Shown: positions 61,288-64,000 of the stretch, in pieces
How positions within the stretch are numbered: position 1 is the first letter of the stretch
How the letters are laid out: the number at the start of each line of letters is the position of its first letter
Origin: Bacteroidota bacterium
Lineage (GTDB): Bacteria > Bacteroidota > Bacteroidia > 2-12-FULL-35-15
Direction of reading: 5' to 3'
Length of the DNA stretch: 64,000 bases
Assembly (NCBI GenBank): GCA_025963725.1
Contig: JAOQAE010000003.1
Location: 620,001 to 684,000, forward strand
The notes under the pieces: generated by a model
What the model saw: only the letters and a program-made list of their open reading frames with translations
Told to the model about the DNA's origin: nothing
Databases searched by the model: none
Translations under genes and position numbers: made by a program

Positions 61288-61788
61288 TTATTGGAGTGGT
61301 TTCCTGATCTCTGAAATATCATATCCCATGCGCTTGCAGTGCTCCACAAGCGAAGTGTAAAGCTGGTTATCCATCTTCCCGGTGCGGTTCATGATATAAA
61401 GAAATTTCTTTTTCGGGTGCCCCACGATCACGTACGAATAATCTTCCGCGATCTCTTCTATGAGGTAATCCGCTTTAAAAGGCCAGAAGAACTGTACTTT
61501 CCATTTTACGTTCTTTGTGTCGGCTTGCGGGAATCCTTTTGCGCGGAGCTCTTTTTTTTCAGGCTGTCCTTTTTTCTTATAAGTTGTATATACGTCAATG
61601 TTGCCGTCCTCACGGATGGTATAGGTTTCCGTAGTGTAATCCCAATCCGCATCGAAACGCGTAGGAATAGTGCCGATCACATACCATTTGCCGGAGTATT
61701 TCTGCAGGTCGATCGTGGAAGGCGCTATGGCGGGCATTGCTGTGCTCACAATGGAGCAGATAACAGATGCAATTTTAAAGGTGGTCAT
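61288..61788 (-). CDS. Lipocalin family protein (Blc-like)
   Basis: This 166-residue protein starts at the ATG at 61788, giving the signal sequence MTTFKIASVICSIVSTAMPAIA; an upstream ATG at 61815 would add nine residues. The lipocalin signature is YSGKWYVIGTIPTRFDAD, followed by ETYTIREDGNIDVYTTYKKKG and VGHPKKKFLYIMNRTGKM (Arg-containing third motif). Blc-type lipocalins bind lysophospholipids or fatty acids. No lipobox Cys is seen, so it is probably periplasmic. A reverse-strand promoter lies at 61871-61841. Confidence 0.9.
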   Translation of the reverse strand: MTTFKIASVICSIVSTAMPAIAPSTIDLQKYSGKWYVIGTIPTRFDADWDYTTETYTIREDGNIDVYTTYKKKGQPEKKELRAKGFPQADTKNVKWKVQFFWPFKADYLIEEIAEDYSYVIVGHPKKKFLYIMNRTGKMDNQLYTSLVEHCKRMGYDISEIRKPLQ

Positions 61789-61840
61789 GCCCCATTTAAT
61801 AAAAAAGTGTGCCATTTAACACAAAAACAGGATTTTACCC

Positions 61841-61913: not shown

Positions 61914-61946
61914 TTTGGAAGTTGAAATATTCCAAGGCTATATTTG
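61914..61946 (+). promoter_or_regulatory. Bacteroidetes-type promoter of the sulfur operon leader
   Basis: TTTG at 61914-61917 and a perfect TATATTTG at 61939-61946 are separated by 21 nt. Transcription should start near 61952, about 12 nt before the leader ATG at 61964. Confidence 0.65.
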
Positions 61947-61963
61947 CAGCGCAATTACGAAAC

Positions 61964-62035
61964 ATGCACAACAGCGCAACACATACTTTAAACACGATCA
62001 GCAGCACAATGATGTGCTGTATGATGTGTTTTTAA
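61964..62035 (+). CDS. Cys/Met-rich leader peptide of a transcription attenuator
   Basis: A 23-codon ORF begins with ATG at 61964 and stops with TAA at 62033. The peptide is MHNSATHTLNTISST followed by MMCCMMCF. Four of its last eight codons are Met and three are Cys. It starts about 12 nt after the predicted transcription start and lies upstream of genes for sulfur export, APS reduction and homoserine dehydrogenase. The coding region also contains a perfect hairpin CAGCACA-ATGA-TGTGCTG (62002-62019). The expected role is to stall ribosomes when Cys- or Met-tRNA is scarce. No Shine-Dalgarno is seen, which is common in Bacteroidota. Confidence 0.75.
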   Translation: MHNSATHTLNTISSTMMCCMMCF

Positions 62036-62040
62036 TTAGT

Positions 62041-62107
62041 GGAAGGCCTGTTATATCAGCACATATAAACAATTTAAAAAAGGCTTTCCGTTATGGGAAG
62101 CCTTTTT
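62041..62107 (+). terminator. Attenuator: antiterminator arm and intrinsic terminator before the sulfur operon
   Basis: The terminator is a 13-bp stem (62077-62089 with 62095-62107, one U-G pair), loop GTTAT, ending in TTTTTATTTT right before ATG 62113. GGAAGGCCT (62041-62049), 5 nt after the leader stop codon, can instead pair with AGGCTTTCC (62081-62089), nine pairs with one G-U, and block the terminator. A ribosome waiting at the leader stop would cover 62041-62049; one stalled at the Met/Cys codons would not. Confidence 0.75.
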
Positions 62108-62127
62108 ATTTTATGCAGGAACACACA

Positions 62128-63120
62128 ATGAATCAACCTGAGGAGAACATACACAAGCCCGGTAAGCCCAACGCTGCGCCCGATGCGGGCGAAAGCTTGT
62201 CTTCACTGCAGCCTCACCTTGTTACCGGTGAGCCGCGCGGGAGGAAGCGGACATGGAAATACTGGCTGAGCTACAGCGCTGCTGCATTGGCGCTGATGAT
62301 CGTGGGACATATTATTTTTTCTTATTTACCCCTCTCGCAGATTGGTGGCCTGGCGGGTGATCTTTTGTCGCAGGTAGACAGCACGCTGCTCATTTTTGTT
62401 GCCGGCGGCTTCGTTGCGCAGATGGTGGACGGAGCCTTGGGCATGGCTTATGGCGTAACGGCAACCACGTTCCTGCTCTCGTTCGGGATCGGCCCGGCGG
62501 CGGCCAGCGCCAGCGTACATGCTTCGGAGATCTTTACCACGGGCGCTTCGGGGCTCAGTCATTTGCGATTTAAGAATGTGAACTCAAAGCTGTTCAGGCA
62601 CCTGCTCATCCCCGGCGTGATCGGCGCCATCATAGGAGCGTATGTGCTCTCCTCCTTTTCGGAATACGGAGGATATATTAAGTCGGTGGTGTCGGTATAC
62701 ACGCTCATCCTTGGCATTGTGATCATCGTGAAAGCGGTCCGCAGGCTGCGCAATAAGAAAAAGATCAAACGGATCGGGATCCTCGCATTTTTCGGCGCGT
62801 TCCTGGATTCGATCGGCGGCGGGGGCTGGGGCCCCATTGTTTCCTCCACGCTGATCGCAAGAGGGCGGAACATGCGCTACACGATAGGATCGGTGAACCT
62901 GGCGGAGTTTTTCATTACGCTGGCGAGCTCTGCCACTTTCTTCACGCTTATCGGGATCCATCACTGGCAGGTGATCACCGGGTTGATCATCGGCGGAAGC
63001 ATTGCGGCGCCTCTCGCAGCGTATTTCACCTCGAAGATCCCGGTGCGTGCCGGACTGATCACCGTGGGCATTGTAATAGTTGTTGTAAGTTTAAGGAACC
63101 TTTTGAGCGCTGTGTTTTAA
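62128..63120 (+). CDS. Sulfite exporter TauE/SafE family protein
   Basis: This 330-residue membrane protein has a polar N-terminal region of about 45 residues, then about eight to nine TM helices. Signatures are VAQMVDGALGMAYGVTATTFLLSFGI, ASASVHASEIFTTGASGLSH and FFGAFLDSIGGGGWGPIVSSTLI. The ATG at 62128 is favoured because AGGA lies 7 nt before it; ATG 62113 inside the terminator U-tract is an alternative. Family members move sulfite, sulfoacetate or other sulfur anions. It shares one base with the cysH start (63120), supporting a role in sulfur assimilation. Confidence 0.9.
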   Translation: MNQPEENIHKPGKPNAAPDAGESLSSLQPHLVTGEPRGRKRTWKYWLSYSAAALALMIVGHIIFSYLPLSQIGGLAGDLLSQVDSTLLIFVAGGFVAQMVDGALGMAYGVTATTFLLSFGIGPAAASASVHASEIFTTGASGLSHLRFKNVNSKLFRHLLIPGVIGAIIGAYVLSSFSEYGGYIKSVVSVYTLILGIVIIVKAVRRLRNKKKIKRIGILAFFGAFLDSIGGGGWGPIVSSTLIARGRNMRYTIGSVNLAEFFITLASSATFFTLIGIHHWQVITGLIIGGSIAAPLAAYFTSKIPVRAGLITVGIVIVVVSLRNLLSAVF

Positions 63121-63767
63121 TGGATATTATTGAGCTGAATAAGAAATATCTTCCTTTAACTCCGCCGGAACGGATCAGGATGCTGTATACGGATTTCGAC
63201 AGGATCCTTTTCACATCTTCCTTCGGCACCACATCTGCATTTTTATTGCATTTGTTCAATACGGTAAACCCCGCTCAGGTGGTGCATTTCCTGGATACGA
63301 CCTATCATTTCAATGAAACGCATGCCTACAGGCAATTGCTCACTGATCTGCTGAAGCTGAAAGTGATCGAGGTGAAGCCGGAAGAATGGAAGAATACATT
63401 CACACAGCAGGATAAGACCTGGAACAGCGATCCCGACCTTTGCTGCTCCATCAACAAGGTAGAGCCGCTGGATAAGATCAAGCCGGGTTTCCAGGTGTGG
63501 GTGTCGGGACTGATGTCGTCACAGAACAAATACAGGGAGAATTTAAAGATCTTTGAAGAAAAGGATGGCATATTAAAATTTTTTCCGATCGTTGACCTTT
63601 CCGAGAAGGATGCTTACGATTACATACGGAAAAATAAGCTTCCCGAGCATCCGCTGCTGAAGGCCGGCTACAATTCCGTGGGCTGCTTTCATTGCACGGT
63701 GGCCGGAAAAGGCCGCAGCGGACGCTGGGTGAACAAATCGAAAACAGAATGCGGATTGCATTTGTAA
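63120..63767 (+). CDS. cysH: Assimilatory APS reductase (phosphoadenosine/adenosine phosphosulfate reductase family)
   Basis: This 215-residue enzyme reduces adenylylated sulfate to sulfite. It has the nucleotide-binding start FTSSFGTTSAFLLHL and DTTYHFNETHAY. Cys108-Cys109 and Cys189-x-x-Cys192 are the [4Fe-4S] ligands that mark APS rather than PAPS reductases. Catalytic Cys211 lies in KTECGLHL. It is slightly shorter than many family members but all motifs are present. The start overlaps the TauE/SafE stop by 1 nt (TAATG), and homoserine dehydrogenase follows 36 nt later. Confidence 0.94.
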   Translation: MDIIELNKKYLPLTPPERIRMLYTDFDRILFTSSFGTTSAFLLHLFNTVNPAQVVHFLDTTYHFNETHAYRQLLTDLLKLKVIEVKPEEWKNTFTQQDKTWNSDPDLCCSINKVEPLDKIKPGFQVWVSGLMSSQNKYRENLKIFEEKDGILKFFPIVDLSEKDAYDYIRKNKLPEHPLLKAGYNSVGCFHCTVAGKGRSGRWVNKSKTECGLHL

Positions 63768-63803: not shown

Positions 63804-64000
63804 ATGGAAAATAAAAATATTACAATAGGATTATTCGGGTTCGGCTGTGTTGGCCAGGGACTGTATGATGTGCTGAACCATTCGCAGGGACTGAAGGCGA
63901 ACATCGAAAAGATCTGCGTAAAGGACAGGAACAAGAAGCGGAAGATCGCTGATGAATTTTTTACGTTCGATAAGGAAGAGATCCTGCAGCGCAACGGGCT
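63804..64000 (+). CDS. Homoserine dehydrogenase (N-terminal part, cut by window end)
   Basis: Only 65 residues are visible. They begin with MENKNITIGLFGFGCVGQGLYDVL, a Rossmann NAD(P)-binding start with GxGxxG typical of homoserine dehydrogenase, and continue with IEKICVKDRNKKRKI. The enzyme makes homoserine for methionine and threonine. Its place after cysH ties sulfide production to the carbon skeleton for methionine, in agreement with Met and Cys codons in the operon leader. The frame is open to the end of the window. Confidence 0.85.
   Translation, partial: MENKNITIGLFGFGCVGQGLYDVLNHSQGLKANIEKICVKDRNKKRKIADEFFTFDKEEILQRNG

Follow-up and report, generated by a model that had tools for sequence, protein, structure and literature searches.

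A putative ribosome-mediated cysteine/methionine attenuator before the tauE-cysH-hom operon of a Bacteroidota bacterium

The tauE-cysH-hom operon of a Bacteroidota bacterium is very likely (probability about 0.88) controlled by a ribosome-mediated transcription attenuator that responds to how fully two tRNAs, tRNA-Cys and tRNA-Met, are charged. The sequence parts of this attenuator, their conservation, their pairing, and the modelled ribosome geometry are shown; translation of the leader ORF, stalling of ribosomes in it, and the direction of the response are inferred, and there are no expression, ribosome, or starvation data.

The leader and its alternative pairings

The window is the whole stretch of 64,000 nucleotides that was analyzed, C3:620001-684000 of a 4.79-Mb genome (here called the own genome, G000). 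Its attenuator region, 61914-62107, consists of a promoter, an ORF, arm A, a spacer, arm B, and a terminator, and lies directly before tauE-cysH-hom. The features are as follows.

61914..61917, + strand: promoter -33 element TTTG; TTTG in 9 of 13 aligned genus leaders, one base off in the other 4
61939..61946, + strand: promoter -7 element TATATTTG; identical in 13 of 13 aligned genus leaders
61964..62035, + strand: ORF of the putative leader peptide MHNSATHTLNTISSTMMCCMMCF, 23 codons; ATG at 61964, stop codon TAA at 62033-62035
62009..62029, + strand: putative regulatory codons Met-Met-Cys-Cys-Met-Met-Cys; 23 related cores compared
62037..62049, + strand: arm A, the 5' side of the antiterminator, starting 1 base past the stop codon; 13 bp with arm B
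62081..62093, + strand: arm B, common to antiterminator and terminator; 62081-62089 in the terminator stem, the remainder in the loop
62095..62107, + strand: arm C, the 3' side of the terminator, ending in a T run
62077..62107, + strand: intrinsic terminator, 13 bp, -16.8 kcal/mol, AAAAAGGCTTTCC-GTTAT-GGGAAGCCTTTTT
62113..63120, + strand: tauE, TauE/SafE exporter family (Pfam PF01925); ATG at 62113 or, in frame, at 62128
63120..63767, + strand: cysH, PAPS/APS reductase; NF002537 above cut-off, TIGR00434 below
63804..64000, + strand: hom, homoserine dehydrogenase (NF004976); continues beyond the window end, 401 aa in the genome

The promoter, ORF, and terminator are all where a first-pass annotation, made from sequence alone, had placed them. 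Its naming of the TauE/SafE exporter and of homoserine dehydrogenase also held; the gene that it called APS reductase is a PAPS/APS reductase whose substrate, APS or PAPS, is undetermined. The part of hom inside the window scored below the NF004976 cut-off, and the full-length protein scored 305.5 bits (cut-off, 205). We take TATATTTG to be the Bacteroidota consensus promoter element. A lipocalin (Blc-like) gene lies directly upstream of the leader, divergently, on the minus strand at 61288-61815. With its upstream neighbor transcribed away from it, the leader has its own promoter region.

The 9 bp that had been claimed between arms A and B (62041-62049/62081-62089) were confirmed in part: the pairing is longer, with 13 consecutive pairs from 62037 (62037-62049/62081-62093), three of them G.U, at -16.9 kcal/mol. 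Against 999 dinucleotide shuffles of the region behind the motif, it had a z of -4.7 (p 0.001), and a repeat with hand-set arms in the window gave a z of -5.2. The fold of the 179-nt segment 61950-62128 beat 200 of 200 shuffles (z -4.8). We collected 63 distinct instances of the leader, many of them mutually related, and left 18 out of the A:B test because no terminator was detected. A p of ≤0.05 was reached by 36 of the 45 testable instances and missed by 9, of which 6 were in Flavobacteria-type loci.

Pairs were counted on a model-based alignment (A4) because some rows of the MAFFT alignment (A1) had arm B displaced by one base. A4 was fitted to B:C, not A:B, and so leans towards the terminator structure. 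Across 26 homologues the 9-bp core of A:B was paired in 93.5% of 230 cells and B:C in 85.4% of 336 cells, and in neither case did any of 500 shuffles equal these values; slid versions of the A:B core were paired in 23 to 71% of cells. Changes on both sides were found in 5 of the 13 B:C pairs, a number that 32 of 500 shuffles reached. The first-pass annotation had named compensating changes as support. There were two A:B pairs with both sides changed, which is not above the shuffles (mean 2.0; 380 of 500 as high), and one pair, at columns 43/84, that covaries (C-G in 11, A-U in 9, G-U in 1, and unpaired in 3). Because that pair mainly splits the tauE/sulfite reductase type from the cysC type, it may represent a single event.

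Two structural tests of membership in the attenuator class are thus met by the leader itself: an intrinsic terminator lies between the ORF and the first gene, and an antiterminator employs the 5' arm of that terminator.

Conservation and the genes behind related leaders

A third membership test, a short ORF with end-product codons between promoter and first gene, is also met, with translation inferred. The 18-base core codon string, allowing ≤1 mismatch, was found in 39 of 198 genomes (the own genome counted), and a reversed control pattern in 2 of 198. The 198-genome search gave 17 exact matches, 16 of which were short leader ORFs by inspection; the match at G013:C105 sits in a long frame and was rejected as chance or coding sequence. 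In 23 aligned leader cores the four Met columns were kept in 20, 23, 22, and 20 and the three Cys columns in 22, 22, and 21, with both TGC and TGT occurring at each Cys column. The ATG aligned in all of 13 genus leaders and the stop codon in 12; the stop of L063 is one codon later. The N-terminal part of the peptide varies between families and is alike within the genus. The cysC-type leaders have an extra Cys codon, in frame, and in the sulfite reductase/tauE type the distance from stop codon to arm is nearly constant. The proposed check that the peptide, the stop position, and both stems be conserved in relatives was therefore largely passed.

A covariance model, R1, was built from 23 leaders, all from the genus. 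It matched 31 places in 18 of 36 genus genomes (E ≤0.001) and 14 of 247 genomes in a class sample. We compared 38 R1-matched loci (L198-L235) with 15 reference proteins; a match at G001:C83 had no locus, and L031 was left out. Of the 38, 37 carried either a sulfur or Met gene (sulfite reductase-like, cysC/cysD, hom, tauE, or metY) or the aldo-keto reductase gene located ahead of such genes. At L207 the aldo-keto reductase alone was seen, and L071, which is the same place, shows the reductase behind it. Training sequences account for 22 of the 38 loci. Among the 16 outside training, 15 had sulfite reductase-like, cysC/cysD, hom, or metY genes, and the remaining locus was a 2-oxoacid:acceptor oxidoreductase operon. 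One of the 16, L211, is almost a duplicate of a locus used in training, and the motif searches had already turned up L232 and a close relative of L234. The name sulfite reductase is contextual, as these proteins fit the NirA family best and scored below the cut-off of every NCBIfam model.

Searching from the genes instead, we found 14 sulfite reductase-like loci in the genus, of which 11 have the leader, and an MMCC-like leader at 10 of 24 orientable cysD loci (26 were returned; upstream sequence at L140 was too short). Two further cysD loci, L146 and L149, were picked up by R1, and the own cysCDN locus was a weak match (E 0.02). At the cysD loci of several genus genomes neither the gene-first search nor the model search found a leader. 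No comparable leader was found in the ≤650 bases upstream of tauE in 29 relatives. That search was empty because tauE, where the leader exists, sits inside a longer leader-headed operon, which the motif search resolved. The first gene behind the same attenuator is tauE in the window and hom in G028 and G009, and in these three genomes it is possible, by inference, that the operon has been trimmed behind the attenuator.

The own genome has two more copies of the leader, one before cysC-cysD-cysN and one before a 2-oxoacid:acceptor oxidoreductase, and both gave an A:B p of 0.001 with hand-set arms. The cysCDN leader (L190:3886-3939, MKTNAFHTVQGICTMRCC) ends in ICTMRCC and is the weak R1 match given above; cysD and cysN were named by NCBIfam and cysC by eye. 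The other copy (L236, G000:C6:320000-327200, minus strand; R1 match at C6:326651-326747) is the sole exception among the 38 loci. Its leader is Cys-rich (MIVTASTKMACMCCIFSVCGNCF), has A, B, and C arms, and precedes an alpha/beta pair of oxidoreductase genes, of which alpha scored above its model cut-off and beta just below. In relatives, a Cys/Met-rich leader was present by inspection at 10 of 30 loci of the alpha subunit (the raw script count was 14, of which 4 were rejected by eye), and the R1 match at G001:C83 lies just before the same alpha gene. The leader marks this gene pair as having an unexpected link to sulfur, and it is possible that it couples ferredoxin supply or Fe-S demand to sulfur status. 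The own genome gave no match to the NirA-like reductase and none to CysI (TIGR02041), though cysC-cysD-cysN and cysH are present.

Behind the first attenuator, nine operons of the genus have another leader, of the type MTT...MCMCCMMYLRMRK...CKR, with its own terminator; second leaders are also present in L175 and L178. L070 has a MNLIAKNMCCMMSETSAEFAIV leader and then a MNNTVVNKMMMCCKMPMCIPIYCCRK leader, and similar pairs occur in L111, L126, L127, L130, L192, L193, and L100. Kordia likewise has two leaders in tandem. No second leader was found within 430 bases upstream in L109 and L194.

Modelled ribosome positions and rival explanations

In the mechanism that we propose, the promoter would yield a short leader RNA with an ORF ending in MMCCMMCF. 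When both charged tRNAs are ample, the ribosome would reach the stop codon and cover arm A, so that B would pair with C and transcription would stop before tauE. When the charging of Cys- or Met-tRNA is scarce, the ribosome would stall on the Met/Cys run and leave A free; A would then capture B before C is made, and RNA polymerase would enter the operon.

We modelled the leader of the window with ribosomes at these positions. With arm C not yet made, the probability of A:B was about 0.96 for a ribosome on the Met/Cys codons 62009-62027 (footprint edge ≤62039), 0.67 for one on the last Cys codon at the widest footprint setting (edge 62042), and 0.43 or 0.00 for one at the stop codon. In the complete leader at equilibrium, the terminator was favored (0.99) in every modelled state. 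Because the terminator wins at equilibrium in the finished leader, the capture of B by A must be kinetic. The Cys/Met attenuation that the first-pass annotation had inferred is thus supported by conservation and by modelled geometry, with this kinetic requirement added and with the response itself still an inference.

The same shift was modelled in 49 instances with a terminator, consisting of 33 motif leaders ("_a") and 16 downstream leaders ("_b"). Moving the ribosome from mid-run to the stop codon cost 30 of the 33 motif leaders at least 3 expected A:B pairs, and a loss of this size occurred in 25% of 990 shuffles. The failures were L105_a, L108, and L132, the last two from outside the Bacteroidota. 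Among the downstream leaders, which came from the genus, Kordia, and Saprospiraceae, the loss was seen in only 3 of 16 (shuffles, 38% of 480). We therefore rejected the idea that downstream leaders act exactly like motif leaders, because the simple stop-codon model fits only those 3. The last membership test, that a ribosome at the stop codon masks the arm and a stalled one does not, is met by modelling alone, and it is unmet in 13 of the 16 downstream leaders.

Of the alternatives, the one closest to our reading is that the attenuator is real but senses one amino acid, or mainly Cys, with the Met codons kept for another reason. In its favor, diverged copies retain Cys and thin out Met: the own cysCDN leader ends in ICTMRCC, that of the 2-oxoacid oxidoreductase has the sequence ACMCCIFSVCGNCF, and that of L244 is CGCCCMMCI. 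Against it, conservation in the 23 cores is about equal for the Met and the Cys columns, and metY and hom are also among the targets. We consider this alternative unlikely.

Less credible still are two explanations in which the peptide or the ORF has no part in attenuation. Met/Cys-rich strings can bind Cu(I), and the MMCC peptide might be a ligand for a metal such as copper, or another functional small protein, with the terminator unrelated to it. This is very unlikely, because 37 of 38 loci have sulfur or Met genes or their usual neighbor, because both the arm that follows the motif and its base pairing to the terminator are conserved, and because the peptide's N-terminal part, although alike within the genus, changes from family to family. 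It could equally be supposed that control acts at the terminator only, for example through Rho/NusG or a protein antiterminator, and that the ORF is incidental or untranslated. The terminator is strong by itself, and translation data are absent. However, Cys is retained despite synonymous variation, the extra Cys codon of the cysC type is in frame, and the stop-to-arm distance is nearly fixed in the sulfite reductase/tauE type; we regard this explanation, too, as very unlikely. The dual Cys/Met attenuator remains the preferred reading.

Related systems and distribution

The mechanism class is well known. Like the trp, his, thr, ilv, leu, and phe attenuators, the leader has a short ORF, regulatory codons, and a shared arm, with the position of the ribosome predicted to decide between structures; unlike them, it has Cys plus Met codons and sulfur assimilation targets, occurs in Bacteroidota, and is sometimes in tandem. 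At the time of one survey, the attenuator motifs in Rfam were those for His, Leu, Thr, and Trp, with Ile/Val and Phe known besides, and attenuators were considered possibly of gamma-proteobacterial origin (PMC3766115). Actinobacterial polycysteine leader ORFs likewise place a run of Cys codons before cys genes, but they have Cys only, and the mycobacterial regions have no conserved terminator hairpins (PMC1262725). Because the window leader has a terminator and interleaved Met codons, it does not meet the definition of that class (Cys run, no terminator hairpin). The actinobacterial leaders have been described as translation attenuation (PMC13236596), and Canestrari 2020 reportedly concerns the polycysteine leader ORFs of actinobacterial cys operons.

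The first-pass annotation knew of no description of such a leader. We found no Cys/Met attenuator described in Bacteroidota in the open-access literature searched, subscription papers and supplements being out of reach. The caveat is a 2021 transcriptome of Flavobacterium psychrophilum (PMC9723704), whose authors see "strong clues" that attenuation by leader peptides acts ahead of operons for amino-acid biosynthesis. These leaders are from the same phylum and of the same mechanism kind, suggested from transcript data, but the relevant section (supplement Table S7 aside) names no Cys, Met, or sulfur leader; pheA and hisG are among its conserved 5' elements. Candidate sORF leaders have been reported in long 5' UTRs of Bacteroides (PMC7366714). 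The relevant passages of PMC2965389 contain no word beginning "Bacteroid", and the subject of PMC4833913 is reinitiation. Within the literature that we could search, the specificity, the host phylum, and the tandem layout are therefore likely to be new.

SAM-I and SAM-II riboswitches (RF00162, RF01726) resemble the leader in being RNA controls of Met and sulfur genes in the same genomes, but they are metabolite-binding aptamers. The window had no Rfam family at the gathering score, so that membership in the SAM-I/SAM-II aptamers is not met. The only matches of 15 leader-bearing loci to Rfam were to SAM-I or SAM-II, at places other than the leaders. The own genome has one SAM-I riboswitch (C6:389256), and SAM-I scored over cut-off in 91 of 119 genomes searched. 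At L070 the order is two leaders, metY (TIGR01326), a SAM-I riboswitch, and a metX-like gene (best model MetX, below cut-off). Leaders and SAM riboswitches thus coexist in one genome and, once (L070), in one operon. The suggestion that the leader is a different solution from SAM riboswitches was therefore only partly right, as the riboswitches are not replaced. SAM-II riboswitches also lie within a few kilobases of leaders in the Flavobacteria-type loci L111, L098, L099, L089, and L070.

A scan of named genomes returned 44 loci, of which 29 were leader-like in Bacteroidota by inspection; the hosts include Flavobacterium hydatis, F. hydrocarbonoxydans, three Salinimicrobium, four Kordia, a Saprospiraceae MAG, and others. 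The 15 not counted looked like chance or coding sequence or were from outside the Bacteroidota (L090, L092, L093, L096, L097, L103, L108, L114, L115, L116, L117, L119, L123, L124, and L132). In an even sample of the phylum, the strict motif occurred in 10 of 395 genomes and the control in none. Six of the 10 were leader-like by inspection, and the matches in G173, G361, G367, and G566 were judged not to be. With these numbers, the strict motif is a minority form.

A bolder reading is that Bacteroidota possess an old sulfur regulon of Cys/Met attenuators, often two in series, beside SAM riboswitches. Charged Cys- and Met-tRNA would govern genes for sulfate activation, sulfite reduction, siroheme, homoserine, and O-acetylhomoserine sulfhydrylase, and in the genus also the 2-oxoacid:acceptor (probably ferredoxin) oxidoreductase, which could feed electrons to the NirA-like reductase. 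The MMCC leaders of Anaerolineae and Oscillospiraceae would then mean spread or convergence beyond the phylum. We offer this joint reading tentatively, as the odds fall slightly against it. The attenuator itself, if it works as proposed, would give Bacteroidota a defined sensor of reduced sulfur: a single amino-acid signal would coordinate methionine synthesis with the assimilation of sulfate, alongside SAM riboswitches active in the same genomes. Leader-peptide attenuation would gain a Cys plus Met specificity and a tandem layout, and direct tests of regulation would become possible in cultured Flavobacterium, Kordia, and Salinimicrobium.

Several isolated leaders deserve mention. In an Anaerolineae MAG (L132:2896-3020), an MMCC leader ORF and a terminator are followed by metY (TIGR01326 above cut-off), with no clear A:B pairing in the geometry model. 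In an Oscillospiraceae MAG (L114, oriented ~4800), an MMCC ORF lies upstream of methyltransferase-like and cystathionine gamma-lyase/synthase-family genes, the latter reaching no equivalog cut-off. A Vampirovibrionales MAG (L108, oriented 7244) has an MMMCCMMC leader ORF and then a strong terminator. Within the phylum, in another class (L197, G288), leader MNQKKPTTNILAPAHRNMCCMMCCMMMPRKVVERIC at 1441-1551 has a terminator behind it, and the next ORF, 1694-2533, resembles by eye a thiosulfate sulfurtransferase, another sulfur gene. Finally, L070, L126, L127, L130, L192, and L193 have, ahead of the MMMCC leader, an upstream leader whose last codons are SAE-like and contain an arm like CCGCAGAG. 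These six upstream leaders have CTATTGT near the stop codon and ACAAT downstream, and by eye a nested hairpin over the stop codon is possible.
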